From: a virus
Virus record (IMG/VR): IMGVR_UViG_3300050139_000095
Span: 64,001-128,000 of that record
Length of the DNA stretch: 64,000 nt
Direction: 5' to 3' (one strand)
The notes under the pieces were generated by a model. It was not told where the DNA came from. It saw nothing but the letters and a program-made list of their open reading frames with translations, and did not search any database. Of the stretch, positions 3,512 through 63,587 are shown piece by piece; the first letter of the stretch is position 1, and each line of letters opens with the position of its first letter. The translations under genes were made by a program, and so were the position numbers.

Positions 3512-4942
3512 TTGGAAATTCCACGGGGATACGTGAAGATCCCGGCCAACTCGGTCGGGATCGCCTTTCGTCAACTCATTAAGAACGAGTTGACGATTGT
3601 CGCGGATAGCACGTCATCATTCACAAGCGAAGATGTGGTTCATCATTTGTACTCGGACAACCCGCCGTACATTGGTGTGCCTCGTGGATTTTATTTGCAG
3701 CGGCTCAAGCATCGTGGAGTGCCGGGAGAGTTCACCTATTCACTTGGTGGAGCGTTCAATCAGCACGCACGAGAGTTTACTCTGCGTCCTGGTCAGCCGG
3801 AGATTATTGAAAAGGCTCTCAGTGTTTTAAAGAAACACGACTACGGCGGCGTGGTGATTGAAGCCGGTGTGGCCAGCGGGAAGACGTTGATCACTCTTGA
3901 AATCGCAAGGCAGCTTGGACTCAAGACCATTATCATCGTGCCAACGTCAGTGCTGATGGATCAGTGGATCAAAGAGATCAAAAGGTTTTTCCCCATGTGG
4001 AAGGTTGGGAAAGTCTTTGGCGATACCTTTGAGGTCAAGGGTTACGACGTGTGCGTGGCGATGCTTCAGTCGATGGCCATGAAGGATGATTACCCGGCGT
4101 GGTTTTACGAGGAGTTCGGAACGATCATCAGCGATGAAACGCATTTGCTTGGAGCGCCGGAGTTTGCCAAGGGCATCCCGCGCTTCGGTGCGCGGTACAT
4201 GATTGGCGCTTCGGGTACGGTCAGGCGTAAGGATAAGTGCGAGAAGGTTTTCATTTACACTATTGGTGAAGTGATTCCGTTCATGCACGCAGTGAAGACG
4301 ATGCAACCAGAGGTTTTCTTTATAGACACTGGATTCTCTTGGAGTGGGTGGGGAGCACTCGACCGACAGAAATCGCAGGGCCTAAAGCAAATCATTGCAG
4401 ATCCTGGACGTAACGCCATGATCGTTCGTCAGGCCGTCAGAGCGTCCAAGGTTAATCGCAACGTCTTGATCCTGACCGAGCGTAAGGTTCATGCGAAAGA
4501 ACTCTATGGTGCGCTTAATCAGCAATTTTTAGGTAGCCCCTATTCCGCTGGGCTGATGCTTGGGGAAACGAAACAAGATGTTCGCGACGTATCACAAAAG
4601 GCCAACGTGATCATCGCGACTGTCCAATTGATTGGAACCGGATTCAATGAGCCAAGGCTCGACACGTTAATCTTTGCGACACCTGTTCAGAATATCGATC
4701 AGTGCGTAGGCAGGATCAGACGTGAGCATCCGGGGAAGAAAACACCATTCGTGCTCGATCCGGTTGATACCCGATCAGAGGCAGGGATGATTTTTGCTAA
4801 GTCTAGGTTTAAAAAATATCTGGCACAGGGCTGGAAATTACATGGGATCGAATGTTTCCCAAAGGAGTTTTTATGGAAGTACAAGAAGGAACTGTCGTAC
4901 CTGCTACCAAACCCGAACGTGCGTACACGCTCAGGGACTTAG
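3512..4942 (+). CDS. SF2 DNA helicase, UvsW-like
   Basis: 476 residues, the usual size for phage UvsW-type helicases. Walker A is GVASGKT near residue 119, motif Ia is IIIVPTSVLMDQW, motif II is SDETH near residue 207, motif III-like is GASGTVRRKD near residue 233, and motif VI-like is QCVGRIRREHPGK near residue 400. The family unwinds branched DNA and remodels forks for recombination-dependent replication. The start is a TTG preceded by TGGGGGAATA. One exact copy of the TCCAATTGATTGGA palindrome lies inside the gene at 4623, encoding VQLIG. Its 3' end overlaps the next gene by 70 bases. Confidence 0.85.
   Translation: MEIPRGYVKIPANSVGIAFRQLIKNELTIVADSTSSFTSEDVVHHLYSDNPPYIGVPRGFYLQRLKHRGVPGEFTYSLGGAFNQHAREFTLRPGQPEIIEKALSVLKKHDYGGVVIEAGVASGKTLITLEIARQLGLKTIIIVPTSVLMDQWIKEIKRFFPMWKVGKVFGDTFEVKGYDVCVAMLQSMAMKDDYPAWFYEEFGTIISDETHLLGAPEFAKGIPRFGARYMIGASGTVRRKDKCEKVFIYTIGEVIPFMHAVKTMQPEVFFIDTGFSWSGWGALDRQKSQGLKQIIADPGRNAMIVRQAVRASKVNRNVLILTERKVHAKELYGALNQQFLGSPYSAGLMLGETKQDVRDVSQKANVIIATVQLIGTGFNEPRLDTLIFATPVQNIDQCVGRIRREHPGKKTPFVLDPVDTRSEAGMIFAKSRFKKYLAQGWKLHGIECFPKEFLWKYKKELSYLLPNPNVRTRSGT
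4623..4636. repeat. Palindrome TCCAATTGATTGGA, copy 1
   Basis: Exact 14-bp palindrome inside the helicase gene, centre TG. It is the first of 11 exact copies of TCCAAT-YR-ATTGGA in the window. Confidence 0.85.
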
Positions 4943-5565
4943 CGGAAGGCTTCAAAGAGATTGAAAAGCAAATCATCGACAACGGTGGTGAGGTCAGCGA
5001 CGACCTTTATGAATTGCACAATGTCGCGCAGAACTTGTTGGCCGGTAAGTTCGACCGGGTAATTCGTTTCAAGTCGGCGCTCGAAAGCCACATCAAAGAT
5101 TGCCAGATGCAAATCGTAAACAACAAAGCCATGATCGAAAAGATTGATGAGATGGTCGAGGAGTCAGTGAAGTCTCAGGCCACTCAGCGTATTGATGGCA
5201 AGGCTTACGTCGGCAAGGTCGCAAAGAATCCGCCGTCAGTTGAAGTGCTGAACGAGGATGAAGTTCCGCCCGAGTATAAGAATGTGAAGATTGAAATCAA
5301 AGACAAGTTCGCCATGACCGACGTTGCGAAGTACACCAGCTATCGTAACTTTATTGTTGGTCGCATCGTTGGCGCTGACGGAATGACTCCAGAGGAAATT
5401 GCCAAGGTCGATGACTGCGTTGAGATCACGGTTGATAAAAAGAAAATTGCATCGCACTCAAAGACCGCAACCATTCCTGGCATCAAGATCACGCAGAGCA
5501 CTCGCGTTGATGTGAAAGCCGGTAAAGCTAAACCTGCACTGTTGGAGGAAGCCAATGTCCAGTGA
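4873..5565 (+). CDS. Siphovirus Gp157-like protein
   Basis: 230 residues. The first half is helical and charged (YTLRDLAEGFKEIEKQI..., then FKSALESHIKDCQMQI). The second half carries the family's hallmark VAKNPPSVEVLNEDEVPPEY followed by the KTATIPGIKITQSTRVDV strand segment. Gp157 family proteins occur in phage replication/recombination clusters; their biochemical role is unclear. The AAAGGAG site at 4862 selects the ATG at 4873, inside the 3' end of the helicase gene. A further in-frame ATG at 4852 is not needed. Confidence 0.75.
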   Translation: MEVQEGTVVPATKPERAYTLRDLAEGFKEIEKQIIDNGGEVSDDLYELHNVAQNLLAGKFDRVIRFKSALESHIKDCQMQIVNNKAMIEKIDEMVEESVKSQATQRIDGKAYVGKVAKNPPSVEVLNEDEVPPEYKNVKIEIKDKFAMTDVAKYTSYRNFIVGRIVGADGMTPEEIAKVDDCVEITVDKKKIASHSKTATIPGIKITQSTRVDVKAGKAKPALLEEANVQ

Positions 5566-6028
5566 AGTTAAAACGGTGAAACCCGTTAAAAAATCTGCGG
5601 CTGGTGCCCTGGAACAATTGTCATTGAAGGCTGAACCGAAAGCTGCGGCAGCGCCGTCACCTGAAGCGATTGCAGCATTGCCGAAGGAAGTGATTGCTGC
5701 GCCGGTAAAGCAAACCACTAAGATCGAAGTGAAGGCGTCCGGCGAGAAAGAATACACGTCGGTCAAAGATGAAACTAAAGAGTTGGAGACTAAGTTCTTT
5801 TTGGCTAACCCGGTGCGGATCTTCACTGACTACGCCCGTACTATCAACATGGGTAATTACGAGTCGGCAAAGATTTCTGTCGGCCTTAGCATTCCCATTG
5901 GTCCTGAAATCTCTGACGACATGAAGGCGCTGATCCTTGATCGGCACAAGTGGGCCACTGAGTTGATCGGGACTATTGTGACTGAAGAGGAAAAGGGCAT
6001 CAGGGCTTATCTCAGGGAACAGAAGTAG
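5555..6028 (+). CDS. Phage protein of replication cluster, unknown
   Basis: 157 residues in two parts: a Lys/Ala/Pro-rich low-complexity N-terminus (residues 1-65) and a compact C-terminal domain (FLANPVRIFTDYARTINMGN, then SAKISVGLSIPIG and a helical end). It overlaps the Gp157-like gene by 11 bases and is co-transcribed with it. I do not recognise the domain; the context points to DNA metabolism. Confidence 0.6.
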   Translation: MSSEVKTVKPVKKSAAGALEQLSLKAEPKAAAAPSPEAIAALPKEVIAAPVKQTTKIEVKASGEKEYTSVKDETKELETKFFLANPVRIFTDYARTINMGNYESAKISVGLSIPIGPEISDDMKALILDRHKWATELIGTIVTEEEKGIRAYLREQK

Positions 6029-6029
6029 G

Positions 6030-6623
6030 ATGGCTGACACTCCACAGGAGACAATGAGAAAGGCGGCGCTTTGGTTGCGCGGAGAAGACAAAAAGTTTTC
6101 CAAGGCGATCCGCTTTTCAAAATACAAAACTCCGTGGGACCTGGACGACATCCGGCTTCAGTGGCGCGATAAAAAGGAATTGATACCGGCCAGTGTTTAC
6201 GGGAGAGAAGTGATGCTGACCGGAGATCCGAAGATGAAGTCATCGGACAAGATCCCTCTGGTGGACATTGGAGACATGCTGTTACTCCAGTTCATTCCGC
6301 CGAAGGATTTGGATTTCGTTCTCACGGTCTATGAAAACTTTGGCCGACTTATGGTGGTCAACCTTTCTGATCGCGGTCTTGATCCACTGGTTGAGTATTG
6401 TAACAAGATGGACGGAAGGATCGTGACCGCCTTCAAGAAGTTGGAAGCGGCGGGGATCAAAGATATTTGTAGTCTGTTGTGGAAAGAGTTGGGCGGCGCT
6501 TCGATTCGTTCGGACGACCGGCTTGGGAAAAGGGTTTGTTTTTACGCGAACATGGTGTCCAGATACAGGGCTGATCGGGAAGGCTACCATCCCGACATGG
6601 TGCGAATAAAGTTGTTGGGGTAA
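6030..6623 (+). CDS. Hypothetical protein in DNA metabolism operon
   Basis: 197 residues, soluble, basic and aromatic-rich (KAALWLRGEDKKFSKAIRF). No motif recognised. It begins two bases after the preceding stop and ends three bases before the nuclease gene, so it belongs to the same operon. Confidence 0.6.
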   Translation: MADTPQETMRKAALWLRGEDKKFSKAIRFSKYKTPWDLDDIRLQWRDKKELIPASVYGREVMLTGDPKMKSSDKIPLVDIGDMLLLQFIPPKDLDFVLTVYENFGRLMVVNLSDRGLDPLVEYCNKMDGRIVTAFKKLEAAGIKDICSLLWKELGGASIRSDDRLGKRVCFYANMVSRYRADREGYHPDMVRIKLLG

Positions 6624-6625
6624 CT

Positions 6626-7456
6626 ATGTTGTTCAATGCGATTAGAAAAGCGAATGAAGATCCGGCCAAACTGGAAGAGTTGTTCGTGCCATTTGATTTG
6701 TTGGCCGAGACCGCGCACCGACTATCGAAGTCGGAGCCGCTGCCGATCCCCACTATGGATACGCTTTACCGAGTTTCAAACATGACGAGGATGTGCGAGC
6801 GAGAAGAGGTCCTGCGTCATAACCTGAAGCGCGAAGCCACCAAGAAGGTTGACGCAAAACTTCAACGGACATTCGACTTTGGTAATGGGTTTCACTATAT
6901 AGTTCAAAACAACTGGTTCGGTTTGTGGGGATGGCTGGAGGGCGATTGGCTTTGTACGTCCTGCGGCGAAAAACATCTCAAGCAATTGAAGCCATCGAAC
7001 TGTCGGAAGTGTAAATCCGCAGAACAATTTCACTATATCGAATTGGAACTTGAGAGCATCCAGCATTTCATAACTGGCCACCCGGATGGCATCCTGGTCG
7101 TTGGTGGGCATCGGTACACGCTGGAGCTAAAGACCTCGAACACAAAATACTTCCAGTATATTAGGAACACGATGCGACGGCCTCTTGACGCGCATCTTGA
7201 TCAAGTGAATCTGTATATGTTTTTGCTTGGCATCTACCGCGCAATCGTCGTGTACTTTGACAAAGACACAAGTGACTGGATGCAGTTTCATGTGAAGTAC
7301 GACAAGCAAAGAGTTGAACGCCTTCTTGGAAAAATAAAAACAGTCAAGGACGGAATACAACTTGGATCGGTGCCGCCAAGAAAAATGTGCGACAAGATCG
7401 GTTGTGCCAGAGCGTTGAGTTGCCCAGTAAGAATCGAGTGTTTCAATAGTAATTAA
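6626..7456 (+). CDS. PD-(D/E)XK nuclease, RecB/Cas4-like
   Basis: 276 residues. A central CTSC...CRKC zinc finger (residues 112-132) precedes the catalytic core GHPDGILV (Asp near residue 153) and YTLELKT (E-x-K near residue 168). The C-terminus has clustered cysteines (MCDKIGCARALSCPVRIEC), as in the iron-sulphur clamp of AddB/Cas4-type exonucleases. The family processes DNA ends during recombination or replication. With SSB, helicase and Gp157 it forms a phage recombination module. The zinc finger inserted before the active site is less usual. Confidence 0.8.
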   Translation: MLFNAIRKANEDPAKLEELFVPFDLLAETAHRLSKSEPLPIPTMDTLYRVSNMTRMCEREEVLRHNLKREATKKVDAKLQRTFDFGNGFHYIVQNNWFGLWGWLEGDWLCTSCGEKHLKQLKPSNCRKCKSAEQFHYIELELESIQHFITGHPDGILVVGGHRYTLELKTSNTKYFQYIRNTMRRPLDAHLDQVNLYMFLLGIYRAIVVYFDKDTSDWMQFHVKYDKQRVERLLGKIKTVKDGIQLGSVPPRKMCDKIGCARALSCPVRIECFNSN

Positions 7457-7505
7457 CCGCTGGAGTTCATGGTGATCTCCGGCTAAGTTCTGGGGGGAAC
7501 TCAAC

Positions 7506-8573
7506 ATGGATGTCAGCTTAATACCGGGGGAGATGAATAATATTATGGCTAAGTTAGAGGGTAAATCTGCAAAAGGAAAAAAAGAAAAGAAATCAAAAGC
7601 GACTTTAGTTACTGACAAAGAGGTTGGCGACGAAAAAGCTTTGGCGGTAGTTGATGAAGACTTCAAGCCTGACACGCAACCGATGGTTGCTTCGGCTGAA
7701 GACGGATTCAATATGCCGAGTGATCAGGCGCGTGAGCGTGTGATGACTCTCAAAGACGAGATGAAGGACAACTACGTTGAACTTTGCCGTCTTCTTCACT
7801 ACATCCACAGAAAGACTTTATATAGTAACTGGGGATTCGGAACCTTCGATGACTACGTGGCGAGTGAACTTGAGTTTGAAAAGAGCAAGGCACGCCATCT
7901 TATTCAGCTTTGGGAATGTCTCTATGAGCGCCAAGGTGACAAAGAAGTTTTCAACAAAGTGATCGCGCTCGGCTGGACAAAGGCCACGATCCTTATGCAT
8001 GTCGTGAACGCGGAGAACGCTGAAGAGTGGGTTGAAAAGGGTACGCACATGTCTTGCGAGCAATTGCGCAAGGAAGTGAAGACCTACTTGGCTCAAAAGA
8101 TTTCAGATGATCCTTCTGAGGCTCTTGAGGGCGCGGATGAAGTCGAGGGAACCAATACCGAACTCGCGATGAAGACCATGAACCTTCAGCTTCACCACGA
8201 CGATTACTTGGCGATTTGTCAGGCTGTCGAGTCGATGCAGAAGATCGAGCCTGGCATTTCGATCAGCAATGCGATCTCTTTGATCTGCCGCGACTTCATG
8301 AGTTCAGTCCCTGCCGATGATCAGAACAATCCAAAGGGCACTCTTGTTGAGATGCTGAAGCGGTATGAGAGTAATTCGTCGCTGAAACTGATCGTTATCG
8401 ATCCAGAAGATAAATCTATCTTGCATGGCTTCGAGCACCTTGCTCTGATTGCGGGTGAGAGCGAATCAACCAGCGCGGAAGAAGGCGCTGACGAAGGGGC
8501 AGTAAGTGAAACAGCGGGTGAAGTTACGGCTAATCAGGTCGCAAGTATCGACGAAGAAGACGTTTTTAACTAA
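7506..8573 (+). CDS. Hypothetical phage protein, possible DNA-binding
   Basis: 355 residues. Residues 15-35 are very basic (SAKGKKEKKSK). A helical region (residues 85-200) contains NWGFGTFDDYVASELEFEK and LQLWECLY-like helices. The C-terminal 50 residues are acidic. The helical centre is compatible with a phage or plasmid regulator, but no family is certain. The ATG has a very strong TGGGGGGAA site at 7490. The acidic tail overlaps the next gene by 68 bases. Confidence 0.6.
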   Translation: MDVSLIPGEMNNIMAKLEGKSAKGKKEKKSKATLVTDKEVGDEKALAVVDEDFKPDTQPMVASAEDGFNMPSDQARERVMTLKDEMKDNYVELCRLLHYIHRKTLYSNWGFGTFDDYVASELEFEKSKARHLIQLWECLYERQGDKEVFNKVIALGWTKATILMHVVNAENAEEWVEKGTHMSCEQLRKEVKTYLAQKISDDPSEALEGADEVEGTNTELAMKTMNLQLHHDDYLAICQAVESMQKIEPGISISNAISLICRDFMSSVPADDQNNPKGTLVEMLKRYESNSSLKLIVIDPEDKSILHGFEHLALIAGESESTSAEEGADEGAVSETAGEVTANQVASIDEEDVFN

Positions 8574-8970: not shown

Positions 8971-9325
8971 CTGCCAACAAATCCCTGTGAAGGACGAAAT
9001 TGGATACGGCGCTCTCGGCACTGAAGGCGCTGTTCAAGTTCACACCTTGGCGAATGTTCCGTCAGTAAACCTCAGTCTTCAGCAATTCGCAGCGCGGTGG
9101 AACTCCTTGAATGATCCTTTGATTTGTTTGCCAGCATCGGCATACGCAGATATGAAAGAGGATCTTGAAAAGGCGTGTACATATTTGCAGTCATGCACGA
9201 CCGACACGCAGACCGCTGTCGATAACATTTCAACCAAGATTGATTCCATTAAAGCGGCGGCTGACAAAGTTATAGGAATCAACAAAGCAAGGCGACTTAA
9301 AAAGGCGAGCGATGGAATCAACTAA
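8888..9325 (+). CDS. Putative lipoprotein
   Basis: 145 residues. The GGGGGAG site at 8875 sets the ATG at 8888. The N-terminus has RR at residues 6-7, a hydrophobic core and a lipobox LLSC with lipidated Cys29. The mature part is helical with a coiled-coil-like end (NISTKIDSIKAAADKVIG). It starts 83 bases inside the preceding membrane-protein gene, an overlap reminiscent of Rz/Rz1. A lysis role is possible but unproved. Confidence 0.55.
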   Translation: MQSPMRRLMPVTLSQVLLSLMVGAPLLSCQQIPVKDEIGYGALGTEGAVQVHTLANVPSVNLSLQQFAARWNSLNDPLICLPASAYADMKEDLEKACTYLQSCTTDTQTAVDNISTKIDSIKAAADKVIGINKARRLKKASDGIN

Positions 9326-10121
9326 AGAATCAAGTCTTCGACTCATTGATGTTCATGTTGACCGCATAGATCCAAATCCGAATAACGCGAATGAAATGGA
9401 TGAGCCTACATTCCAGCGGCTATGCGAAGAGTTCCGCGAGCACGGGATCATCATACCGATTACTTTGATTGAGAAACCAGATGGCCGGTATAAGCTGATT
9501 GGTGGTGAGCATAGGTGGAAGGCCGCGATTGCCACTGACCACAAATATATCCCGTCAATCGTTCTCGCGGATGAGAAGTGGAATGATCCGGACATCGTGG
9601 ATCTTGTGGCTGTGCGGATCAATGAGATCCGTGGCCGAGTGTCGGCGCAGAAGTTGACGCCGATCTATGAGCGTGTGGTCGCGAAGCATGGCGAGGAAGC
9701 TGCGCAGAAGATCATGGGTATCACCCACGACGATGTGTTCCGCAAGTTGGTGCGCAAGATGGCGAAGAACATCCAGAAGTCTTTGCCGGTGGACATGGCA
9801 AAGAAGGTTGAAGAGGCGGCGGCCAAGGCCAAAGATCCCGCGCAGCTTGGCAGGTCGCTGTCGAAGATTTTTACCCAAGAGGCAAAGAGCATGGAGTCCA
9901 ACTGCCTTGTCTTCAAGGGTGGGACCAAAGAGCATGTCTTGGTCAAGTGTTCGCCAGATATGTTTGCCGCGATGAAAGAGTTGGTGCGGTACGCTCAGGC
10001 TTACGGTGAAGACATCAATGACGTTTTATTTAGTAGTGTTTTAGTTCCATTGAAATCTTATCAGGCTAGATCGCAGAGTGATCCGCCGTCAGATGAAATT
10101 GTCGCGACGGTTTCGCATTAG
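9312..10121 (+). CDS. ParB/Srx-fold domain protein
   Basis: 269 residues. Residues 8-110 form a ParB N-terminal (ParB/sulfiredoxin) domain: VDRIDPNPNNANEMD, then EHGIIIPITLIE and the GGEHRWKAAI box, the CTPase/nuclease signature region of ParB. A helical segment follows (THDDVFRKLVRKMAKNIQK) and could be a DNA-binding region. ParB relatives bind centromere-like palindromes or act as nucleases. It is the last gene of the replication operon and a candidate binder of the scattered palindrome described here (inference). Confidence 0.75.
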   Translation: MESTKESSLRLIDVHVDRIDPNPNNANEMDEPTFQRLCEEFREHGIIIPITLIEKPDGRYKLIGGEHRWKAAIATDHKYIPSIVLADEKWNDPDIVDLVAVRINEIRGRVSAQKLTPIYERVVAKHGEEAAQKIMGITHDDVFRKLVRKMAKNIQKSLPVDMAKKVEEAAAKAKDPAQLGRSLSKIFTQEAKSMESNCLVFKGGTKEHVLVKCSPDMFAAMKELVRYAQAYGEDINDVLFSSVLVPLKSYQARSQSDPPSDEIVATVSH

Positions 10122-11109: not shown

Positions 11110-11769
11110 ATGGAAGTCGAAGGCAAGGGCAAGGCCATTGATTTGGTCTATGAAACTATTCGTCACGCCATACGAGATCCAGACTTTGACGTAGAAGATT
11201 CGCAGATAATTCGCCACGCACTTGAATCCTTTCAAGACATGATCTCCATGACTGCGGCGGTTCATGTGCTGCGCAATGCCGCCAACATGAATGAAGATCA
11301 AGATACTCAAGAGACCTTGAAGCGTTTGGCCATAGGCATTCGCGGGTTACAATTCAATTCTGAGTTAAATGAAAAGGGTATTGTCGATGTGCTTTCTGAT
11401 CTTGAGCACAAGCAATGGATGAAGTGGAGTCAGACGGTAGCGCCTGAAGTGTCAGAAGAACGGCGAGTCCGGTGGAAGATGTTCTGGGTTCCATACGAAC
11501 AGCTTGATGAGGCCACCAAAGGGTTTGATCGTCTGTGGGCTATGCGAGTCATGTCAGTCATCGAGCCAGTGATGGAGAGGATTCGCGGCGAACAGTACGA
11601 AAGGTTTCTTGGCTACGTTCGTCATTCAATGGATCTTTTTTTTCAGAAACAGTTTGAACAAGACATCTTTGAGAGCTATCGCAATCAGGTACTCGCGGAT
11701 ATTTTAAATCAAGTCCAACAAGAATCTCTTGGCGAAGGCGTCGGAGATAGGGAAGAATCTTCCAATTGA
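11110..11769 (+). CDS. RyR-domain-like protein
   Basis: 219 residues. Residues 100-155 carry an RyR-type signature: LSDLEHKQWMKW, then WVPYEQLDEATKGFDRLWAMRVM (usual form: LAENxHxxWA ... LVPYdeLpexEKxyDR). RyR-like domains are common in phages and in nucleotide-signalling systems and may bind nucleotides. The stop codon TGA lies inside a TCCAATTGATTGGA palindrome. An Xre regulator follows at once. Confidence 0.6.
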   Translation: MEVEGKGKAIDLVYETIRHAIRDPDFDVEDSQIIRHALESFQDMISMTAAVHVLRNAANMNEDQDTQETLKRLAIGIRGLQFNSELNEKGIVDVLSDLEHKQWMKWSQTVAPEVSEERRVRWKMFWVPYEQLDEATKGFDRLWAMRVMSVIEPVMERIRGEQYERFLGYVRHSMDLFFQKQFEQDIFESYRNQVLADILNQVQQESLGEGVGDREESSN

Positions 11770-11774
11770 TTGGA
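11761..11774. repeat. Palindrome TCCAATTGATTGGA, copy 2
   Basis: Exact copy, extended to TTCCAATTGATTGGAA. It contains the stop codon of the RyR-like gene and lies 17 bases before the ATG of the Xre gene, just upstream of its GGGGAAC ribosome site. Confidence 0.85.
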
Positions 11775-14345: not shown

Positions 14346-14435
14346 GGAAGAGTGTGTGAGCGGTTTAAACAGCCAGTCTTGAAAACTGGTAGACTCGAAA
14401 GAGTCTCGTAGGTTCAAATCCTACCTCTTCCGCCA
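14346..14435 (+). tRNA. tRNA-Ser (UGA)
   Basis: 90 nt including encoded CCA. The acceptor GGAAGAG pairs with CTCTTCC, the anticodon stem is CCAGT/ACTGG with loop CTTGAAA (anticodon TGA at 14380-14382), there is a long class II variable arm, and the T-arm is GTAGG-TTCAAAT-CCTAC. It reads UCA. It lies five bases after the tmRNA and is probably processed from the same transcript. Confidence 0.93.
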
Positions 14436-15840: not shown

Positions 15841-15854
15841 TCCAATCGATTGGA
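15841..15854. repeat. Palindrome TCCAATCGATTGGA, copy 3
   Basis: Exact copy with CG centre, intergenic between convergent operons, two bases before the A-tract of the terminator. Confidence 0.85.
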
Positions 15855-20683: not shown

Positions 20684-20697
20684 TCCAATCAATTGGA
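20684..20697. repeat. Palindrome TCCAATCAATTGGA, copy 4
   Basis: Exact copy, CA centre, seven bases before the AAAGGAG site of the 20717 gene. Confidence 0.85.
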
Positions 20698-23772: not shown

Positions 23773-23786
23773 TCCAATTGATGGGA
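23773..23786. repeat. Palindrome variant TCCAATTGATGGGA
   Basis: One mismatch to the 14-bp consensus; nine bases after a stop codon between convergent genes. The rest of the gap to 23896 shows no gene. Confidence 0.5.
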
Positions 23787-23896: not shown

Positions 23897-24457
23897 TTAA
23901 AGATCGGCAGAATTGGAGCACCATTCGGCGAGTTCACTCAGCGCGATGTTCGTGTAGCTGTTGAGCCGAATGAGATCGGGGACCTGACCTGGATGGCAAA
24001 AGATGTTCTTGATCACTGCCCAATAGTCAGGAGAACCATCAAGGTTCAACGGGAGTAAGGCGGCTGGTGGCAAAGTAAACTGCGCGGGATCGGCCACGGC
24101 TCTCGCGACTTCAAACTTCAATCCATGTTTCTCTGCCCAAATGTAAGCGACCAATGTTTCCATATCGACAGCATCACATTTGGTGTTGGCCCAAGCCTTT
24201 GCCTTGTCTTGCGCGGTGACTATGGCAAGACTATCGAGGCCAAATTCTTTCGTTGGATCTGTGATCAAAGCGCCAGGCTTCAGCGCGGGATTGAGTCCAC
24301 CGGCAATACCAAAGCTGACAACACAATCGACATTCGGTTTGATCGACTCCAATTGATTGGACAAATGTTGCGGGTTGCCACCACTGACGATGATCGGGAC
24401 CTTGTATTGGCGAAGGATTTCATATTCGGTTTTCATTCCACAAACGAAGAGTTTCAT
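23897..24457 (-). CDS. Nucleoside phosphorylase-like protein, HpnG type
   Basis: 186 residues. VVSFGIAGGLNPALKPGALI, the catalytic-region CDAVDMETLVAY, and the end ADPAQFTLPPAALLPLNLDGSPD...HPGQVPDLIRL follow the order of the purine phosphorylase superfamily, closest to hopanoid-associated phosphorylases (HpnG). The chain is shorter than usual for the family and lacks part of the middle, so the substrate may differ. Inside lies palindrome copy 5, encoding SNQLES. It ends a minus-strand operon. Confidence 0.65.
   Translation of the reverse strand: MKLFVCGMKTEYEILRQYKVPIIVSGGNPQHLSNQLESIKPNVDCVVSFGIAGGLNPALKPGALITDPTKEFGLDSLAIVTAQDKAKAWANTKCDAVDMETLVAYIWAEKHGLKFEVARAVADPAQFTLPPAALLPLNLDGSPDYWAVIKNIFCHPGQVPDLIRLNSYTNIALSELAEWCSNSADL
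24348..24361. repeat. Palindrome TCCAATTGATTGGA, copy 5
   Basis: Exact copy inside the phosphorylase-like gene. Confidence 0.85.
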
Positions 24458-25349: not shown

Positions 25350-25670
25350 TTATAAACCAGTGTGAATCGCGGCGGGAAGGTTCTCCCTCACTTGTTCCGT
25401 GGTCAGATCGTCAATTGAATCTCCATCGCAGCTACTCCATTCGGTCCAACCAATGCCATCTTCTTTGAAGAACTCTTCATCGAAGACATGCAGTCCACCG
25501 GCATTGGCGTAGTCACCTTTGATCCGATGATTGAGTTGGAACTTGTCGTAGTCGGCGAGCACCTGAAGGATGAACTTTGCTTCAGCCAAGTTCGCAACAG
25601 GAACATGGAAAGGTTTGCCGGGAACTTGGGGAATCCACCAGACGCGGAGATCGCCGGAAGTGTTGATCAT
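25350..25670 (-). CDS. Conserved phage/plasmid protein
   Basis: 106 residues from the ATG at 25670 (AAAGGAA site). VWWIPQVPGKPFHVPV, then YDKFQLNHRIKGDYANAGGL and EWSSCDGDSID match the layout of a widely spread small family of unknown role. Operon member, coupled to 25667. Confidence 0.6.
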   Translation of the reverse strand: MINTSGDLRVWWIPQVPGKPFHVPVANLAEAKFILQVLADYDKFQLNHRIKGDYANAGGLHVFDEEFFKEDGIGWTEWSSCDGDSIDDLTTEQVRENLPAAIHTGL

Positions 25671-26098
25671 TTGTTTTCCTTTAGTGTGGGATTGCCTTGC
25701 CAAAGAGTTTCTATAGGTGAGCGGTAGCCGACTGCGATCTTGACGTGACCTGGGTGAATCCACATCACAGTCTTGACCGGGAAGGTGTTAGTATTGATTC
25801 TGATCCCAGCGGCTTCGCAAGCATTGTAAAGCGCGGGGCAAGGGGAGTAATCCACATTGAGAATGCCAGCGGGGAAGCCAGGCTTATCAACCGGCCAGCA
25901 ATTATTGAAGAACTCCTCTTCCATTGTCCGATAGAGGATGGACTCGAAAGCATTGATAGTTTTTTCGGCTACCGATTCATGCGGGAGCAATGAGGCCATG
26001 GCCGCGTGCCCGTCGTCGCCGTTGTTAAATTCAGGGCGCTCTCGCAAGTGACTGGCCCACCAATGCGCGGCGACCTCCAACTCCTTAACCTTGTTCAT
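25667..26098 (-). CDS. Conserved phage protein
   Basis: 143 residues. AAHWWASHLRERPEFNNGD and the C-terminal VKTVMWIHPGHVKIAVGYRSP resemble an uncharacterised tailed-phage family. Translationally coupled to the secreted protein upstream. Confidence 0.55.
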   Translation of the reverse strand: MNKVKELEVAAHWWASHLRERPEFNNGDDGHAAMASLLPHESVAEKTINAFESILYRTMEEEFFNNCWPVDKPGFPAGILNVDYSPCPALYNACEAAGIRINTNTFPVKTVMWIHPGHVKIAVGYRSPIETLWQGNPTLKENK

Positions 26099-26397
26099 CG
26101 TTTCACCCATGGCTTTTCAAATTGAGAGTAGCTATCGAATAGGTCTTGGATCGCGGGGGTAATGGGATAGTAAGAGCGGATGGTCCAACCTAGGATAGAA
26201 AGATGCCGACTCTGTTGGCGCGACCAAAAGCACTTCACAGCTTCCTTGCGGTACATATCCACAAGTTTATCCACAGGGACTGATTCGTATTGGTAGGGAT
26301 CTTCAGAGATCAAATGACGTTCGCACCAGTCAGCCCAGCGACCGGCGTGCGCGGGGGAAAGCATCACAAGCATTACACTAAAGATTCCCACTCTCAT
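26095..26397 (-). CDS. Small secreted protein
   Basis: 100 residues. MRVGIFSVMLVMLSPAHA is a signal peptide with an AHA cleavage site before Gly19. The mature part has two or more Cys and would be periplasmic. Overlaps both neighbours. Confidence 0.55.
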   Translation of the reverse strand: MRVGIFSVMLVMLSPAHAGRWADWCERHLISEDPYQYESVPVDKLVDMYRKEAVKCFWSRQQSRHLSILGWTIRSYYPITPAIQDLFDSYSQFEKPWVKR

Positions 26398-26578
26398 CAA
26401 CTTCAACCACGATCTTGAACGTGATCCTTCCGTTCTTGAGCCTTGCATAACCTTCGATCTCCAAGTCTTCTTTGCCATCGGCGTCCAACCTAAGCTGCCG
26501 ACCGGCCTGTTTAATAACAACGTCCTTCTCCCTGACTCCACCGAGTATGACCGCGACCGTGCGGCTATAGTGCTTCAT
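26378..26578 (-). CDS. Hypothetical protein, first gene of minus operon
   Basis: 66 residues, beta-rich. GGGGGAGAATCAGC precedes the ATG. Divergent from the long plus block; the 144-base gap to 26722 shows no other gene. Confidence 0.55.
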   Translation of the reverse strand: MKHYSRTVAVILGGVREKDVVIKQAGRQLRLDADGKEDLEIEGYARLKNGRITFKIVVEVDESGNL

Positions 26579-26722
26579 GCTGATTCTCCCCCAAATGATA
26601 TGGAGTTTCTTAACATATTCCATTACAGTGACAATATGGAAATAGTGAGCGGAGTACACAACTCCGCTTTTCAACCAGGGCATCACAGCGTGGAAACGAA
26701 TATAGAGCATACAGAGATCAGC

Positions 26723-27565
26723 ATGACCGCAAGGGTTCATGTCAATGTTTCATGGCAGTCGATACCCATGGACACGCCCAAGTCCTATCGGCTCTGGCCA
26801 CAATGGGTGAGACCTTCCAAAGTCAAAGCAATCAAAGACCTGCCTATTTTCCCGCAGGTGCATGACATGATTCTGAGTGGTCATCCCGATGTTGAGATAG
26901 CAAGGCTTATTCAAACGTCGGGCCTACATCTCGATGACGAATTGGCGACTGTCCAAGGGTGGGTGAGCCATTACCGTGCGACGGTTCCAAAGGCATTGAT
27001 CCTCGTGAAGCACATGCCGAAGGCCGCAATCGAAGCGCACAAGCGCGTGAATGCCAGTCTGGATCTCATCGCGGAAGCCGATCAGCTTTATCAATGGCAG
27101 AAAGCCAGGGCGCAGAAGTCAATCGACCGCGAGAAATCAATCGACTACATCATTCCGGGTGGCGACAAAGAGATCACAGCGGCCTCGAATCTCTTGGATA
27201 AGTGTTTGAAGATGAGGAAAGAGATCGGCCTGACCGATAAACAAATGACCGATGGCCTCAGTTCCTCCAATCAATTGGAGAGATTCGACATGAATCGCGT
27301 ATACAGCCGCGAGGGCATCAACGAGAAGTTGAGAGATCCTGGGGCAAGGATGAAGATCCTGAACGCAGTAGAGAAGGTCATGGACTTCGTATCCAGGCGA
27401 GTGGAAGAGAGTGAGGCCCCGATTGAACTTGAGGGCGAAGTTATTGACGTTACACAGGGCAGTACAGATGCCAGTACACAACGTAAAGAAAGTGCTGGCC
27501 TGGAAATTATTTCCGAAGTAGACCTGACTGGTATCCAAACAGTGGCGGGAGATGAACCGGGATGA
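26723..27565 (+). CDS. DNA-binding-like protein, possible small terminase
   Basis: 280 residues. Residues 45-90 look like a helix-turn-helix (VHDMILSGHPDVEIARLIQTSGL). A helical middle (EAHKRVNASLDLIAEADQLYQW) and an acidic C-terminus follow. This layout resembles small terminase subunits, but no large subunit is nearby, so it is only a suggestion. The start is uncertain: in-frame ATG also at 26636 and 26768. Palindrome copy 6 lies inside, encoding SNQLE. Confidence 0.55.
   Translation: MTARVHVNVSWQSIPMDTPKSYRLWPQWVRPSKVKAIKDLPIFPQVHDMILSGHPDVEIARLIQTSGLHLDDELATVQGWVSHYRATVPKALILVKHMPKAAIEAHKRVNASLDLIAEADQLYQWQKARAQKSIDREKSIDYIIPGGDKEITAASNLLDKCLKMRKEIGLTDKQMTDGLSSSNQLERFDMNRVYSREGINEKLRDPGARMKILNAVEKVMDFVSRRVEESEAPIELEGEVIDVTQGSTDASTQRKESAGLEIISEVDLTGIQTVAGDEPG
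27266..27279. repeat. Palindrome TCCAATCAATTGGA, copy 6
   Basis: Exact copy within a coding region, CA centre. Confidence 0.85.
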
Positions 27566-35843: not shown

Positions 35844-35885
35844 ACTGGCCCTTCCTTTTCAGAGCACTTGTGTCATCATTGGGAA

Positions 35886-36380
35886 ATGAAATCGCTTTAC
35901 TACATCGACATGATTTGGACTCCGCTGGTGGCGATCACGCTGATCGAGTTCCACCTGCGCACGTTCGGGTTCACTCCTACGCTGGCGTTTACATTCGCTG
36001 GCGGCGTGTTGCTGTGGACCTTCATGGAATATGTTATCCACAGAGTTCTCCACATCACGAGACATCCTGGGCACTTCAGGCACCATGCCTATCCCGTGGA
36101 ACAGAACGGGCCGGGAGCATTGCAAACGATCATCGTGATGGCGCTCATGTACGGAATTTTCCAATTGATTGGAGGATTCATATTCGCGTCAGGCTTCGAG
36201 GCGGGGCTGTTGAGCGGTCTCGCGGTCTATCTTTTCGTGCATCATGGCATCCACCTGACCACCATCTTCCCGAATAGTAAGCTGCGGATTATGCATGAGA
36301 ATCATCATGCAGGTATCGGCGAGGAAGTCTTCGGAGTCACGACCACCCTTTGGGATCGGTTGTTCAATATCTTTAAGTAG
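35886..36380 (+). CDS. Fatty-acid hydroxylase-like membrane protein
   Basis: 164 residues. Di-iron His motifs of the sterol desaturase/fatty acid hydroxylase family are present in order: EYVIHRVLH, HPGHFRHH, HHGIHL and HENHH. Hydrophobic passes lie around residues 10-50 and 80-115. The family oxidises membrane lipids at the inner membrane. Such a gene is unusual for a phage and may alter host membrane lipids (inference). Palindrome copy 7 lies inside, encoding FQLIGG. Confidence 0.75.
   Translation: MKSLYYIDMIWTPLVAITLIEFHLRTFGFTPTLAFTFAGGVLLWTFMEYVIHRVLHITRHPGHFRHHAYPVEQNGPGALQTIIVMALMYGIFQLIGGFIFASGFEAGLLSGLAVYLFVHHGIHLTTIFPNSKLRIMHENHHAGIGEEVFGVTTTLWDRLFNIFK
36160..36173. repeat. Palindrome TCCAATTGATTGGA, copy 7
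   Basis: Exact copy inside the hydroxylase-like gene. Confidence 0.85.
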
Positions 36381-43918: not shown

Positions 43919-44134
43919 GTGTATCAACTTACTGAACCACATCCAGTTGAACGCATCCCAATCATTTGGTCGGAATATTTTAGAGCCGGTCGGTGGGTGG
44001 GGATTTTGATTCACGTCGCGATTCTTTATCAGTTCAAGGATTTGTTTGTGATGGTGTAAGCGCCACTCACGCGCTCTCGTTAGGACTTTAGTTCGATGGA
44101 ACTCAGTCAGGTCGGCGAGCGTTACTGTCTTCAT
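43886..44134 (-). CDS. Hypothetical protein
   Basis: 82 residues. His/Trp-rich. ATGA-coupled to the receiver gene upstream and overlapping the end of the 43523 gene head-on by 33 bases. Possibly the partner of the receiver (inference). Confidence 0.45.
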   Translation of the reverse strand: MKTVTLADLTEFHRTKVLTRAREWRLHHHKQILELIKNRDVNQNPHPPTGSKIFRPNDWDAFNWMWFSKLIHSQLFQRSNPM

Positions 44135-44511
44135 GCGAACGCTCCAACTAAGTCCATGTACCTTTTCACCAGCAAGATAATGAATTGAATGTCGATAGGT
44201 TTGCGAAGGATCTCGGTCGCGTGATTGGCGGCGATGAAATCTGAATCGTGCGCCGACATCATGATGATGGGAATGCTCGCGAATATTTTTGGGCTGACTC
44301 TTTCAAATTCGATAAGGAATGAAGGTCCATCCATCGGAGCCATGTTATGATCGAGGAAGATCAAATTGGGGAGTGATTCGGTTTCGAGTTTGGTCAAGGC
44401 TTCAAGTCCATCGGCGGCCACGGCCACATCGTAGCCTTCGGCCCCTAGAAGTAATTCCATCAGTTCAGTCATGTCTTTGCTATCGTCAACCACTAAGATC
44501 CTGTAGCTCAT
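44131..44511 (-). CDS. CheY-like response regulator receiver
   Basis: 126 residues, a single receiver domain. Key residues are present: acidic pair VVDDS (9-10), phospho-acceptor IFLDHNM (Asp53), MMSAHD (Ser), and LRKPID (Lys). No output domain. No kinase is nearby, so it could be phosphorylated by host kinases or act as a sink (inference). Confidence 0.85.
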   Translation of the reverse strand: MSYRILVVDDSKDMTELMELLLGAEGYDVAVAADGLEALTKLETESLPNLIFLDHNMAPMDGPSFLIEFERVSPKIFASIPIIMMSAHDSDFIAANHATEILRKPIDIQFIILLVKRYMDLVGAFA

Positions 44512-44630: not shown

Positions 44631-44659
44631 TTGATATTTCCAATCGATTGGAATACATC
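44631..44659 (+). promoter_or_regulatory. Possible promoter with palindrome in spacer
   Basis: TTGATA (44631-44636), 17-base spacer, TACATC (44654-44659). The spacer holds palindrome copy 8, the classic place for a repressor operator. The hexamer matches are weak. Confidence 0.3.
44639..44652. repeat. Palindrome TCCAATCGATTGGA, copy 8
   Basis: Exact copy, CG centre, extended to TTCCAATCGATTGGAA, in the 177-base divergent gap upstream of 44689. Confidence 0.85.
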
Positions 44660-48960: not shown

Positions 48961-49036
48961 TGGGTTGTAGCTCAGTTGGCAGAGCCACTGGCTGTTAACC
49001 AGTTGGTCGCAGGTTCGAGTCCTGCCAACCCAGCCA
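48961..49036 (+). tRNA. tRNA-Asn (GUU)
   Basis: 76 nt with encoded CCA. Acceptor TGGGTTG/CAACCCA, anticodon arm ACTGG-CTGTTAA-CCAGT (GTT at 48994-48996), T-arm GCAGG-TTCGAGT-CCTGC. Reads AAC and AAU. Confidence 0.93.
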
Positions 49037-50824: not shown

Positions 50825-50838
50825 TCCAATCAATTGGA
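50825..50838. repeat. Palindrome TCCAATCAATTGGA, copy 9
   Basis: Exact copy, four bases after a stop. Its right arm supplies the GGA of the next gene's ribosome site (GGAGAATCG-ATG). Confidence 0.85.
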
Positions 50839-57354: not shown

Positions 57355-57639
57355 ATGCACCGTTGGTTTGTCGCATTCAGTTATAGAAAGAATCCAGAGG
57401 CCCCGGTCGCGTTCTCGAACTTGGTGTGCTCGACACCGGACGCTTATTTCAGCTTCGCACACGTTGCGCAGCGGATCGCGGATGACCATCAGTATTCCGA
57501 TGTGCAAATCATAAACTGGAAGCAATTGCAGGAGATTGAGTTCTTGGCCTACGAAGGCTGGAAGTCGGATCATGGCGTGCCGCCGACTCGCGACGTTGAG
57601 CAAACCTTCGAGGGAGTAGTGCCTGACGATTCCAATTGA
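57355..57639 (+). CDS. Hypothetical protein
   Basis: 94 residues. It ends DDSN-stop, with the stop inside palindrome copy 10. No motif recognised. Confidence 0.5.
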   Translation: MHRWFVAFSYRKNPEAPVAFSNLVCSTPDAYFSFAHVAQRIADDHQYSDVQIINWKQLQEIEFLAYEGWKSDHGVPPTRDVEQTFEGVVPDDSN

Positions 57640-57644
57640 TTGGA
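57631..57644. repeat. Palindrome TCCAATTGATTGGA, copy 10
   Basis: Exact copy; holds the TGA stop of the 57355 gene, as copy 2 does for another gene. Confidence 0.85.
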
Positions 57645-57652
57645 GAAGTCCA

Positions 57653-57761: not shown

Positions 57762-57789
57762 GTGACCATTCAATTCTCATTGAGATAAT
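57762..57789 (+). promoter_or_regulatory. Promoter candidate for fibre gene
   Basis: GTGACC (57762-57767), 16-base spacer, GATAAT (57784-57789). If used, the transcript would start about 40 bases before the ATG at 57836 and skip the hairpin leader. Confidence 0.35.
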
Positions 57790-57835
57790 TTTGATCGGGC
57801 GTTACGATTGTGTGGATATATTGGTAGGGGGATGG

Positions 57836-60800: not shown

Positions 60801-62119
60801 CGGTAAACTTCGGTGGAGATTTCGGTACTGGTGGAACTCAAGGTATGGTTCCGCCGCCGCCGTCAGGCTCTGGAACAACTTCATATTTGAAAGCGAATGG
60901 CTCTTGGACCACGGCTGTTTCAAGTGTGGCAGTAACTGTTCCGTCTGACTTTACGATTACCGGAAGTCCGATCACGACCACTGGAACATTGGCGATCACG
61001 CGGAATACACAGTCGGCGAATATGATTTTCGCAGGTCCGGCGTCAGGTGGCGTTGCAGTTCCGACCTACCGAGCGTTTGTCGTTGGGGATAGCAATCCTG
61101 ACTTATCGTTCTTCTTTGGTGATGGATCTGATGGAAATGTGACGGTCAACTCAGGACTGACCGCCCTTTCGCGTGACATGTATTACAACAACCTCACGCT
61201 AAGTGGATCAGGACAAATATATACTGCCGGGTACAAGATTTTTGTTTTGGGAACTCTTGATATGACTCACTCTACGGCAGGTGCTTTCAACAACGATGGT
61301 GCCGTTGGTGGAAATGCTTCGGCTCAAGCAAAGGGAGCGAGCGGTGGTTTGACCGCCGCTGGAAGTGTGGGTGGCGGTGGAGCCGGTGGCGCTGGAAGTA
61401 CCGCAACGTCAACTACTGGAACTGCGGCCAGTGCTGGATCGGCACAGAATCCAAGCAATAGTCAAAATGGTGGCGCTGGATCGACTGGCGGCGCTGGAAC
61501 AAATGTTGGTAGCGCGGCTGGAAATGGCGGATCAACAACTGCATATCCTCCATTTCATAGATTCACTCCTGATCCAATGTACAACGGGACAACCATCGAT
61601 GGTGGTTCGGGCGGCGGCGGCGGCGGATCTGGTGGCGGGGATGGCACACACTCTGGAGCCGGTGGTGGCGCGGGTGGTTCTGGTGGCGGATCTATTTTTA
61701 TTGCCGCAAATACTATAGCTCGCGGAGCATCTACTTCAGTATCTTCGATCCTCGCACAAGGTGGGGCTGGCGGTGGTCCTGGAACCGACAACGCGGCTTG
61801 CACAAACTGCGGCGGAGCGGGTGGCTCTGGCGGCGGTAGCGGCGGATTCATTATGATTTACTATGCGAATTTAACCGGATCAATTGCTACAAACATGATT
61901 GATGCTTCAGGTGGCGCTGGTGGCGCTGGGGGAAATGCAATCGGCGGAACTGGTGGTAAGGGCGGAAGTTCTGGTGGTGGCGGCAATGTTACTTTATTCA
62001 ATATAAACACAAACACTTCGACAACCAATACTGGATCTGCGGCTGTCTCCGGAACGGTAGCATCGGGAACCACTGGTGGTCCTGGAGCGCCAGTGAACTC
62101 TTTCTTGCTTTCGCTTTAA
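57836..62119 (+). CDS. Giant secreted fibre-like adhesin
   Basis: 1,427 residues. MKRIIAVLGLLCCVIAWAG is a Sec signal peptide, which is unusual for a phage fibre. About four repeats of 85-110 residues follow (NVHSAELAANAAT, VKRDGSGNFSAG, LTGNVTGNVSG, LVGDVTGNQ). A linker with LPDTSGTFAF, typical of fibres, comes next. The last 350 residues are Gly-rich with several polyglycine runs (SGGGSGG) like the glycine-rich tips of phage adhesins. The start ATG at 57836 follows GGTAGGGGG. It could be a receptor-binding protein, or a surface protein put on the host cell. Confidence 0.75.
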   Translation: MKRIIAVLGLLCCVIAWAGTPPPLIGILQGNEIKFFAPNLNINDAAKFLTGSVDPTAVATDAPAGSLFLRSTGNVYVKLDAGSTVNWTLLANSSSTVTSVGLALDPSVFAISNSPVVNSGVLTGTFIPQNPNMIFAGPASGSAIPPTFRLLDPLDIPSLDASKITSGQGSISTSTTGVTIGNGASSTVGPNVTVDVQAASGSQPGLLTAANFNTFNGAATMTSAASSSNISSVLVKRDISGGFAAGQVSTGSVLFRDSGANVIGIQSPSAVSTYALILPPTQGSSSQTLLNDGAGNLSWASILPASLPSGQIFIGSVGNTATPQTISGDVVSITNGGVTTLKNTGTPGAYYKVNTDAQGRVTSGNTSLITSDLPALTSASIWIGNGSNSAAVQPLTGDISLSNAGVTAVNTVGGSSAANIHSAELAANASTNLNTSSAIVRRDSSGNFSAGTMTGNVTGNLTGNVTGNVSGTAGSFTGALLGDVTGTQASTVVSLVGGSSAANVHSAELAANAATNINTASTIVKRDGSGNFSAGVISGALTGNVTGNVSGSSATFTSPLVGDVTGNQGSTVVGKIQGSAVSITAPTDAQLLIWNNGQTRYNPSSLSGDATITNAGALTVGSVGTSSASNIHSAELAANAATNLNTISTIVKRDGSGNFSAGTIIAALTGNVTGNVSGSSGSFTGSLVGDVTGNQSATVVSTVGGSSAANVHSAELAANAASSNDTSGNTIVKRSGGAFTTGAVTATGAAVTGVSTTALTVNNTTLVADSSNGAIGINTAPASTAVLDVVNNSGATKAVQITGYGSNVGFRGRFARGTLATPTSVLLDDIIEFISGRGYGATGFATASTGSINISAGANFTDSSMPTYISLSTTPVSSVTSAEAMRVNSTGNVLIGKTTDDATNKLQVNGSASVTNEKIAGTAGAGYINFNNQSSAAPNPTTSVNLFANTSGHLSMIESGSFIGSFSLANLTANRTYTLPDTSGTFAFAVNFGGDFGTGGTQGMVPPPPSGSGTTSYLKANGSWTTAVSSVAVTVPSDFTITGSPITTTGTLAITRNTQSANMIFAGPASGGVAVPTYRAFVVGDSNPDLSFFFGDGSDGNVTVNSGLTALSRDMYYNNLTLSGSGQIYTAGYKIFVLGTLDMTHSTAGAFNNDGAVGGNASAQAKGASGGLTAAGSVGGGGAGGAGSTATSTTGTAASAGSAQNPSNSQNGGAGSTGGAGTNVGSAAGNGGSTTAYPPFHRFTPDPMYNGTTIDGGSGGGGGGSGGGDGTHSGAGGGAGGSGGGSIFIAANTIARGASTSVSSILAQGGAGGGPGTDNAACTNCGGAGGSGGGSGGFIMIYYANLTGSIATNMIDASGGAGGAGGNAIGGTGGKGGSSGGGGNVTLFNINTNTSTTNTGSAAVSGTVASGTTGGPGAPVNSFLLSL

Positions 62120-62138
62120 CAAAAAAGGAGAAACTAAT

Positions 62139-62531
62139 ATGACGAACGATGCATGGGGTAGAACAGTAGTAAAGACGACCGATGGAGTAACGGATACCTA
62201 CACGGTAGGCGCTGATAGCGACGTTGGAGATCGTGCATTTACTTTGGATTTCCCCGCTGGCGCTGATTTAGAAGGTCAAGTTTATCGCGCAATAAATGGA
62301 CGCCCACCGTCTGGAACTGGTGGAACGCCGGTCAATCTTGCGCTGTTACCTTCCACTGGATTCCTTGGATCAGGCGCAACACAAGATCGTCCAGTAACCA
62401 ATGATGGGCCGCCACCCGATGCCGGTGTATTTGTTGGCCAATATTATTTCGACACCAGCCTTGGCATTCCTGTTTATTTTGTTGGCAATGGAACTACTGG
62501 ATGGGTTGACGCAACAGGCGCTCAAGTTTAA
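62139..62531 (+). CDS. Structural-like protein, paralogue of next gene
   Basis: 130 residues. The first 50 (WGRTVVKTTDGVTDTYTV, then FPAGADLEGQVYRAINGRPP) resemble the next protein's start. AAAGGAG site. Perhaps attached to the fibre. Confidence 0.55.
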   Translation: MTNDAWGRTVVKTTDGVTDTYTVGADSDVGDRAFTLDFPAGADLEGQVYRAINGRPPSGTGGTPVNLALLPSTGFLGSGATQDRPVTNDGPPPDAGVFVGQYYFDTSLGIPVYFVGNGTTGWVDATGAQV

Positions 62532-62540
62532 GGGGGAAGT

Positions 62541-62993
62541 ATGCTACCGAACGATAAATTTGGCCGTTCAGTCACGATGGCCACCGCAGACGGTGAAGAC
62601 AATTACACTGTCACGGGCAGTGATGGCAGTTCATTTTCGGTAAGCTTCCCAGCGGGAACAGATGTCGGTCAGGTGTACAACTCGATCAATGGTCAAGCGC
62701 CAGCGGGATATACACCACCGGCAATTCCGTTGAATCAACAATACACACGGGCACAGTTTGGTGCCCTGTTGATTCAAGGGTTCTCGGATTCAAATGGCGA
62801 TAGGGGCTTGACCGCCGATCAGAATTTTCAGATCGCGCAGATGATGGCCCCATTCGCTTTACTGGCTCAGGCCGGGGATCTCGATACTTTGGTGGCAGAG
62901 GTTTCAAAGATTCCGGTTGACGGAGTTTTGATTACCCAGTCACTCATAGATATGTTTGTTGGGGAAATTCAAGCATACTTAAATGGTAACTGA
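62541..62993 (+). CDS. Structural-like protein, paralogue of previous gene
   Basis: 150 residues. FGRSVTMATADGEDNYTV and FPAGTDVGQVYNSINGQAP align with the gene before, then a different helical domain. AAGGGGGAAG site. Unknown role near the fibre gene. Confidence 0.55.
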   Translation: MLPNDKFGRSVTMATADGEDNYTVTGSDGSSFSVSFPAGTDVGQVYNSINGQAPAGYTPPAIPLNQQYTRAQFGALLIQGFSDSNGDRGLTADQNFQIAQMMAPFALLAQAGDLDTLVAEVSKIPVDGVLITQSLIDMFVGEIQAYLNGN

Positions 62994-63004
62994 CGGGGGA
63001 TGAA

Positions 63005-63337
63005 ATGATCGTTCAAGGCGGAGCAACAATATCGTTTAACTATACGACCTACGATCAAAGGTCAGACCTCTTCATTCAGGCATCCATCTACGATGTGACT
63101 GGCGATACTCCGCAGTTGGTCACGACCTTGCCAATGCCTCATGTGGCCTTTGGAATCTACATCGGAAAATTCGTTCCGCTGTTCAATAGAATTTATCAAG
63201 TGATCAAAGTGGTATACCTCGAAGACACCTTCGACAATATTGATCCGCAGCGTGCGCCTGACGTTGACGATTACTCAGCTTTGGCATTGCAAGATCAAAC
63301 TGGTTCGGACATTATCGGAGTTGTTCAAGATTGTTAA
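63005..63337 (+). CDS. Hypothetical beta-rich protein
   Basis: 110 residues. ISFNYTTYDQRSDLFIQASIYD in pattern suggests an immunoglobulin-like or tail accessory fold. GACGGGGATGAA site. Confidence 0.5.
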   Translation: MIVQGGATISFNYTTYDQRSDLFIQASIYDVTGDTPQLVTTLPMPHVAFGIYIGKFVPLFNRIYQVIKVVYLEDTFDNIDPQRAPDVDDYSALALQDQTGSDIIGVVQDC

Positions 63338-63349
63338 TAGGGGGTTGTT

Positions 63350-63571
63350 ATGGCTAGGCAGGAAACACAATCGGTTGATTTCGTTAAGCGTTTTGAAGAA
63401 CTGAAAAAGCAATGGTTCGCCAAACGAGAAAAGCAATTCGATATTGATGGGGATGAAATCTACTCGGCGGTTCCCGACCGCTCACTACTGGCAAAGATGT
63501 TTGAGAACATGGGTTGCGACATTCCTCTCCACCCGAGCGATCCGCCGAAGCTGATCGGGCCAGCCGAATAA
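63350..63571 (+). CDS. Hypothetical protein
   Basis: 73 residues, helical start. ATAGGGGGTTGTT site. Unknown. Confidence 0.5.
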   Translation: MARQETQSVDFVKRFEELKKQWFAKREKQFDIDGDEIYSAVPDRSLLAKMFENMGCDIPLHPSDPPKLIGPAE

Positions 63572-63573
63572 AT

Positions 63574-63587
63574 TCCAATCAATTGGA
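63574..63587. repeat. Palindrome TCCAATCAATTGGA, copy 11
   Basis: Exact copy, extended to TTCCAATCAATTGGAA, two bases after a stop codon. Confidence 0.85.

Follow-up and report, generated by a model that had tools for sequence, protein, structure and literature searches.

In each of the bacterial systems ParB-parS, Noc-NBS and MatP-matS, a single dimeric protein reads near-invariant palindromic sites scattered over a replicon. Among phages, the closest precedent for the array described here is found in the Cluster O mycobacteriophages (Corndog, Firecracker), which carry more than 30 near-invariant 17-bp dyad repeats, about a third of them in genes; these repeats lie mostly off promoters, and their authors argued against promoter control and predicted binding by a dimer, the function being unknown (PMC4351075). 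In this study we focus on 14-bp palindromes, TCCAATNNATTGGA, that are likewise near-invariant and spread over a phage genome with a similar distribution. They were noticed in the window, that is, the whole 64,000-nucleotide stretch analysed here, which corresponds to bases 64001-128000 of the 160,330-bp virus record IMGVR_UViG_3300050139_000095 (IMG/VR records may be fragments). The phage is contractile-tailed, because its record encodes a T4-like tail sheath and baseplate, and the first 25 kb of the window gave no megablast match to known phages.

Comparison of related phages leads us to propose that the palindromes are very probably bound by a helix-turn-helix (HTH) protein of the PHROG_17202 family, a link that appears to be new. 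An earlier sequence-only reading of the window knew of no described element having this sequence. No description of the present palindrome was found in the open-access literature (an earlier account elsewhere being possible), and the accessible parts of the papers on phages DLP3 and DLP5 and on the Rhodobacter phages contain no description of the repeats; an array of this type, however, is on record for Cluster O (PMC4351075).

Form, spacing and position of the palindromes

The window contains 11 exact TCCAATNNATTGGA sites, where dinucleotide shuffles give 0.02 expected and never reached 11, which confirms every copy of the sequence-only reading at its coordinates. The whole record contains 21 exact copies and its backward-read control none. 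The centre is TG, CA or CG, a pyrimidine-purine (YR) step, in 21 of 21 copies, so that the constant centre first seen in the window extends to the full record; TG/CA centres are found in both orientations. Beyond the 14 bp there is weak added symmetry, with pyrimidines on the 5' side and purines on the 3' side. When up to two mismatches are allowed the window holds 18 sites against 3.7 expected, and thus the exact class stands out and degraded copies are few. Only four more sites with one arm mismatch exist in the record; one near-site of this form, TCCAATTGATGGGA at 23773-23786, has a YR centre. The spacing of 3-9 kb given by the sequence-only reading is correct within the window, but over the record the gaps range from 2.1 to 27.8 kb. 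The smallest gap, 2.1 kb, is larger than under random placement (P ~0.001), and the gap variance in this genome is not unusual.

Four of the 11 sites lie inside genes: TCCAATTGATTGGA at 4623-4636 within the helicase gene 3512-4942, TCCAATTGATTGGA at 24348-24361 within the minus-strand open reading frame (ORF) 23897-24457, TCCAATCAATTGGA at 27266-27279 within ORF 26570-27565, and TCCAATTGATTGGA at 36160-36173 within ORF 35868-36380. At 11761-11774 and 57631-57644, both TCCAATTGATTGGA, the TGA of the motif forms the stop codon of ORFs 11110-11769 and 57355-57639, respectively. TCCAATCGATTGGA at 15841-15854 occupies a convergent gap with a terminator-like hairpin alongside, whereas TCCAATCGATTGGA at 44639-44652 occupies a divergent gap upstream of a response-regulator gene. 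The remaining TCCAATCAATTGGA sites are intergenic (20684-20697), in a short gap with co-directional genes on both sides (50825-50838), and directly past the stop codon of the preceding gene (63574-63587). The product of 44131-44511 (minus strand), divergent from the gene that follows site 44639, is a stand-alone CheY-like response-regulator domain.

Related phages and conservation of the sites

Two of the checks proposed with the sequence-only reading, a count in the whole genome and a look at related phages, bear out the motif: besides the 21 copies of the record, a tail-sheath search led to relatives of which G003 (134,619 bp, 62% sheath identity) carries 16 copies and the fragments G002 and G004 carry 2 and 3. 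Exact 14-mer scans of IMG/VR alone yielded G028 (12 copies) and G001 (23 exact copies, and 94 of TCCA-N6-TGGA), the other hits being mostly one chance copy each. All four long motif-bearing records encode a DnaB-like helicase, a primase, a second helicase and a Cas4-like exonuclease, and they also share one non-enzymatic protein with an HTH-like segment.

A motif-blind dyad scan of phages with this replication type uncovered a wider class, TSCA-N6-TGSA, of which TCCAATNNATTGGA is one version. Among dispersed dyads it ranks first or close to first in some 20 phages that share the replication genes, including Stenotrophomonas DLP3 and DLP5, Rhizobium L338C, Agrobacterium JP1, and Rhodobacter and Vibrio phages. 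The version found in DLP3 and DLP5 is TGCAATYRATTGCA, that of RcTiptonus TGCAATCGATTGCA, that of JP1 TTGCAAACGTTTGCAA, that of HJ05 and L338C TGCAAC-N2-GTTGCA, and that of TM16 and Y1_11 GTGCAA-N4-TTGCAC; the same dyad geometry is present in RcZahn, KarBoss, ValSw4, SIO-2, PP24, G055, G058, G064 and G065, and the motif is weak in PJ32 and G063. Copy number ranges from ~8 to ~94 per genome. In DLP3, DLP5, L338C, JP1, RcTiptonus, G001 and G028 the sites are spaced more evenly than random placement would give, as judged by one or both of two tests (P no higher than 0.001 or a comparable value); in several other genomes they are not. The TCCAA-N4-TTGGA sites of G025 were set aside, being clustered within 2.3 kb and not dispersed. 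The dyad scan detected no TSCA motif in G051, G053, G054 and G062, a clade that may use a motif of its own instead.

Other dyads were met in the same genomes. JP1 (PQ741606) has a second dispersed palindrome, GTATATAC, 28 times against 1.6 expected; GACCA-N2-TGGTC occurs 7 times in G053 against 0.1 expected, and CGCG-N11-CGCG 10 times in G001 against about 0 expected.

The alignments indicate that the sites are under purifying selection, because 28 of 28 aligned sites between DLP3 and DLP5 keep all 10 fixed bases intact against 6.6 expected, their flanks being 83% identical. Between TM16 and Y1_11, 6 sites are intact against 0.2 expected. Moreover, site positions are kept well above chance, with turnover, down to ~45% protein identity, and one site in a helicase-like gene occupies an identical codon position in G000 and G003.

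The PHROG_17202 protein as candidate reader

The proposed binder is a 355-aa protein encoded at 7506-8573 (plus strand) and assigned by profile match to PHROG_17202, a family listed with unknown function (E = 7e-19 over residues 25-266; 3e-23 to 2e-119 for relatives). A Pfam DUF3102 label was rejected, as it scored 23.3 bits against a cut-off of 24.4 and its relatives were weaker or unmatched; PHROG_17202 replaces it. Profile searches found the family in 27 of 30 records, only three short fragments being without it. Many of these records were found through PHROG_17202 itself, which makes presence alone weak evidence. Stronger evidence, and the basis of the assignment, is that one residue column covaries with the second base of the half-site: at alignment column 69, the four TCCA phages have S, T, S and S, and 17 of 19 TGCA phages have R. 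The residue is Ser127 in the present protein (codon 7884-7886, plus strand). An AlphaFold2 model, built with IMG/VR relatives only, shows a confident helical domain at residues 72-198 with predicted HTH helices 114-122 and 126-141, so that residue 127 would come second in the predicted recognition helix. It is near the beginning of this helix that HTH proteins usually contact bases, and Arg-to-G is a common protein-DNA contact.

The TCCA phages fall in three places in the tree, which favours three changes between TCCA and TGCA, at least two of them required by branches with good support. The same comparison, run as a control on six further replication proteins that the phages share (1,415 usable columns), gave no column that was fully pure; one helicase column reached 15 of 16. 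We also gathered new PHROG_17202 loci and scanned 50 of their records, 49 of them with Arg at the column. TGCA-N6-TGCA is enriched in 28 of these 50 held-out records (P < 0.001, uniform-base expectation), and two Arg loci taken from assembled bacterial genomes show 8 and 13 TGCA sites over 20.5 kb. TCCA enrichment was found in a single nominal case, G098, and was nowhere convincing: its 5 TCCA-N6-TGGA matches have no common centre, the reversed control gave 4, and they were judged to reflect composition and not counted. The held-out result thus supports, from sequence, the prediction from protein to motif on the Arg side only.

The same covariation bears on the idea that the reader is a DNA-binding protein of the host, the sites having merely accumulated in the phage. 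Such sites could mimic host sites, yet the geometry recurs across phages of Stenotrophomonas, Rhizobium, Agrobacterium, Rhodobacter, Vibrio and Aeromonas and the motif changes along with a residue of a phage protein, which makes this explanation highly improbable.

The sequence-only reading had named Xre and ParB-like proteins as binders. A 269-aa protein with a ParB_N domain by Pfam and Noc/ParB similarity is indeed encoded near the PHROG_17202 gene (9312-10121, plus strand) and is a rival binder or partner. Corndog-type phages also pair dyad arrays with a ParB-like protein (PMC4351075). DLP5 is, by its authors' account, kept as a phagemid via ParB-domain proteins (PMC5834331, PMC7326821). 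However, the full-length ParB-like family, in which only three TCCA members are available, does not track the motif: it is absent from motif-bearing G028, ValSw4 and G065 and present in motif-less G051 and G054. It was therefore set aside as the probable reader and, because several motif-bearing phages have none, is not required; PHROG_17202 is the better supported of the two. No ParA- or ParM-type partner was identified in the part of the ~240 predicted genes that was scanned against family libraries. We therefore consider it very unlikely that the palindromes are parS-like sites bound by the ParB_N protein.

Elsewhere in the window, a glycosyltransferase gene related to GtrB-like O-antigen conversion proteins (28-1866, plus strand) adjoins the replication genes. 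A predicted 147-aa protein (25667-26110, minus strand) has a Pfam BTG match above cut-off (E = 3e-7), a domain known best from eukaryotes. There are two tRNA genes, tRNA-Ser (TGA) at 14346-14435 and tRNA-Asn (GTT) at 48961-49036.

Possible role and relation to known systems

Sites are present all through the early and the late regions; they occupy tandem, convergent and divergent gaps and also lie deep inside genes. Coding sequence is strongly depleted of them in most genomes; in the present record 9 of 21 are fully intragenic against 18.6 expected (P = 6e-7), the genes having been predicted by a simple script, which makes in-gene counts approximate. The corresponding figure for DLP3 was not used, its gene calls being mixed-strand against an all-plus annotation. 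Many tandem-gap sites directly follow a stop codon, and several overlap one through the TGA of the motif. An action as promoter operators was rejected: promoter-like matches, to the sigma-70 consensus only, accompany 22.1% of tandem-gap sites and 21.7% of control gaps.

The coding depletion and the many sites just past stop codons speak for a function in transcription, in which the sites would be roadblocks or silencers throughout the genome in the manner of L5 stoperators or of the SPbeta repeated element, keeping phage genes down in lysogeny or partitioning transcription, with the same or another protein bound. Like stoperators, the sites extend over most of the genome, and DLP5 is temperate and plasmid-maintained (PMC5834331) and DLP3 forms lysogens (PMC7326821). 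Nevertheless we find this explanation rather unlikely: the symmetric sites are not oriented with transcription, they occupy convergent gaps (record positions 7608 and 79841) and the interior of genes, promoter-like sequence is no commoner at them than in other gaps, SPbeta elements lie in promoter regions (PMC10516654) and these sites do not, and the candidate gene has replication and recombination genes, and no lysogeny switch, as its neighbours. The scanned genes of this phage yielded no immunity repressor. The sequence-only reading had offered parS-like sites, stoperators and genome organisation as possibilities; functional, genome-wide and protein-bound sites are well supported by the sequence, and the stoperator option loses weight given the symmetry of the sites and their presence in convergent gaps and within genes.

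The gene neighbourhood raises another alternative. Next to the PHROG_17202 gene are a Cas4-like exonuclease gene (6626-7456, plus strand), which adjoins it, and the helicase gene (3512-4942, plus strand; PHROGs), which is common to all motif-bearing phages with long records; in DLP3 the neighbours are RuvC and RecA. These replication proteins travel with the motif, and the sites could thus be loading points for helicase-primase or for exonuclease/RuvC, a symmetric counterpart of Chi or of secondary origins. This is unlikely, as Chi-like sites depend on asymmetry for their function, the number of copies differs between genomes from ~8 to ~94, and no A+T-rich origin-like flank or iteron cluster was seen around the sites.

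The explanation that on balance appears moderately probable is that the palindromes are architectural or partition-type sites bound by PHROG_17202 and used in replication. A dimeric PHROG_17202 HTH protein would bind TCCAATYRATTGGA palindromes with the half-site TSCAA(T), residue 127 (Ser here, Arg in most relatives) reading the second base, C or G. As a site is present every few kb, the protein could load all along replicating phage DNA and then hold, compact, segregate or mark it for the machinery of replication and recombination, in a manner comparable to that of the parS, Noc or MatP sites of bacteria. An architectural role, as opposed to switching of single promoters, is favoured because the site is symmetric, without link to promoters, located genome-wide and evenly spaced in several genomes, and because of the replication-recombination gene neighbourhood; taken on its own we put it forward tentatively, as quite possible.

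Several observations weigh against this reading. The residue rule is broken by JP1 and RcTiptonus, whose sites are TGCA although the residue is Ala and Ser, respectively; they form a divergent clade and were left out after inspection, which makes the resulting purity of 17/17 somewhat favourable. PHROG_17202 is present without the TSCA motif in four relatives (G051, G053, G054 and G062), and no enrichment is seen in 22 of the 50 held-out records, although many of these are short or distant. Four genomes supply the Ser/Thr side of the rule, and no further TCCA phage turned up. The predicted PHROG_17202 fold resembles no solved structure, with no PDB match at E below 1. Phages that are moderately closely related keep the positions of their sites, which would not be required if spacing alone mattered, and the intergenic preference and proximity to stop codons suit a role in transcription as well.

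Dispersed dyad arrays in phages were known before without a reader. Here one such array is seen in dozens of phages whose hosts are unrelated, and covariation in sequence points to a reader and to a specificity-setting residue, a directly testable pair for which isolated phages such as DLP3, JP1 or L338C can be used. If the architectural role is true, ~100-kb phages organise their DNA by dedicated proteins of their own, and an easy genomic signature exists for finding such systems. It is possible, if doubtful, that tailed phages with this replication module have a dedicated genome-wide DNA-organising system, unrelated to ParB and made of PHROG_17202 and tens of coevolving palindromes, which would be a phage counterpart of bacterial chromosome-organising proteins.

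Compared with ParB-parS, Noc-NBS and MatP-matS, the present system differs in the sequence of its sites and in a candidate protein that has no homology to ParB, Noc or MatP detectable with Pfam and no significant PDB match. The L5-type stoperators of Cluster A are similarly many, short, dispersed and largely intergenic repressor sites; they are, however, asymmetric and oriented with transcription (PMC4351075), whereas the sites described here are palindromic and found in convergent gaps and genes. With the SPbeta repeated element and MrpR, too, a protein of the phage itself is paired with a site that recurs across a large phage genome, but there the elements (SPBRE) are found in promoter regions and the fold of MrpR is that of a tyrosine recombinase (PMC10516654), in contrast to an HTH protein and sites without promoter link. 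No PHROG_17202 relative was found in the searched half of Firecracker, and the Cluster O repeats, TGTTCGG-N3-CCGAACA, have other arms and another spacer than the present palindromes. Finally, no binder was named for Cluster O, while the class described here comes with a candidate reader.

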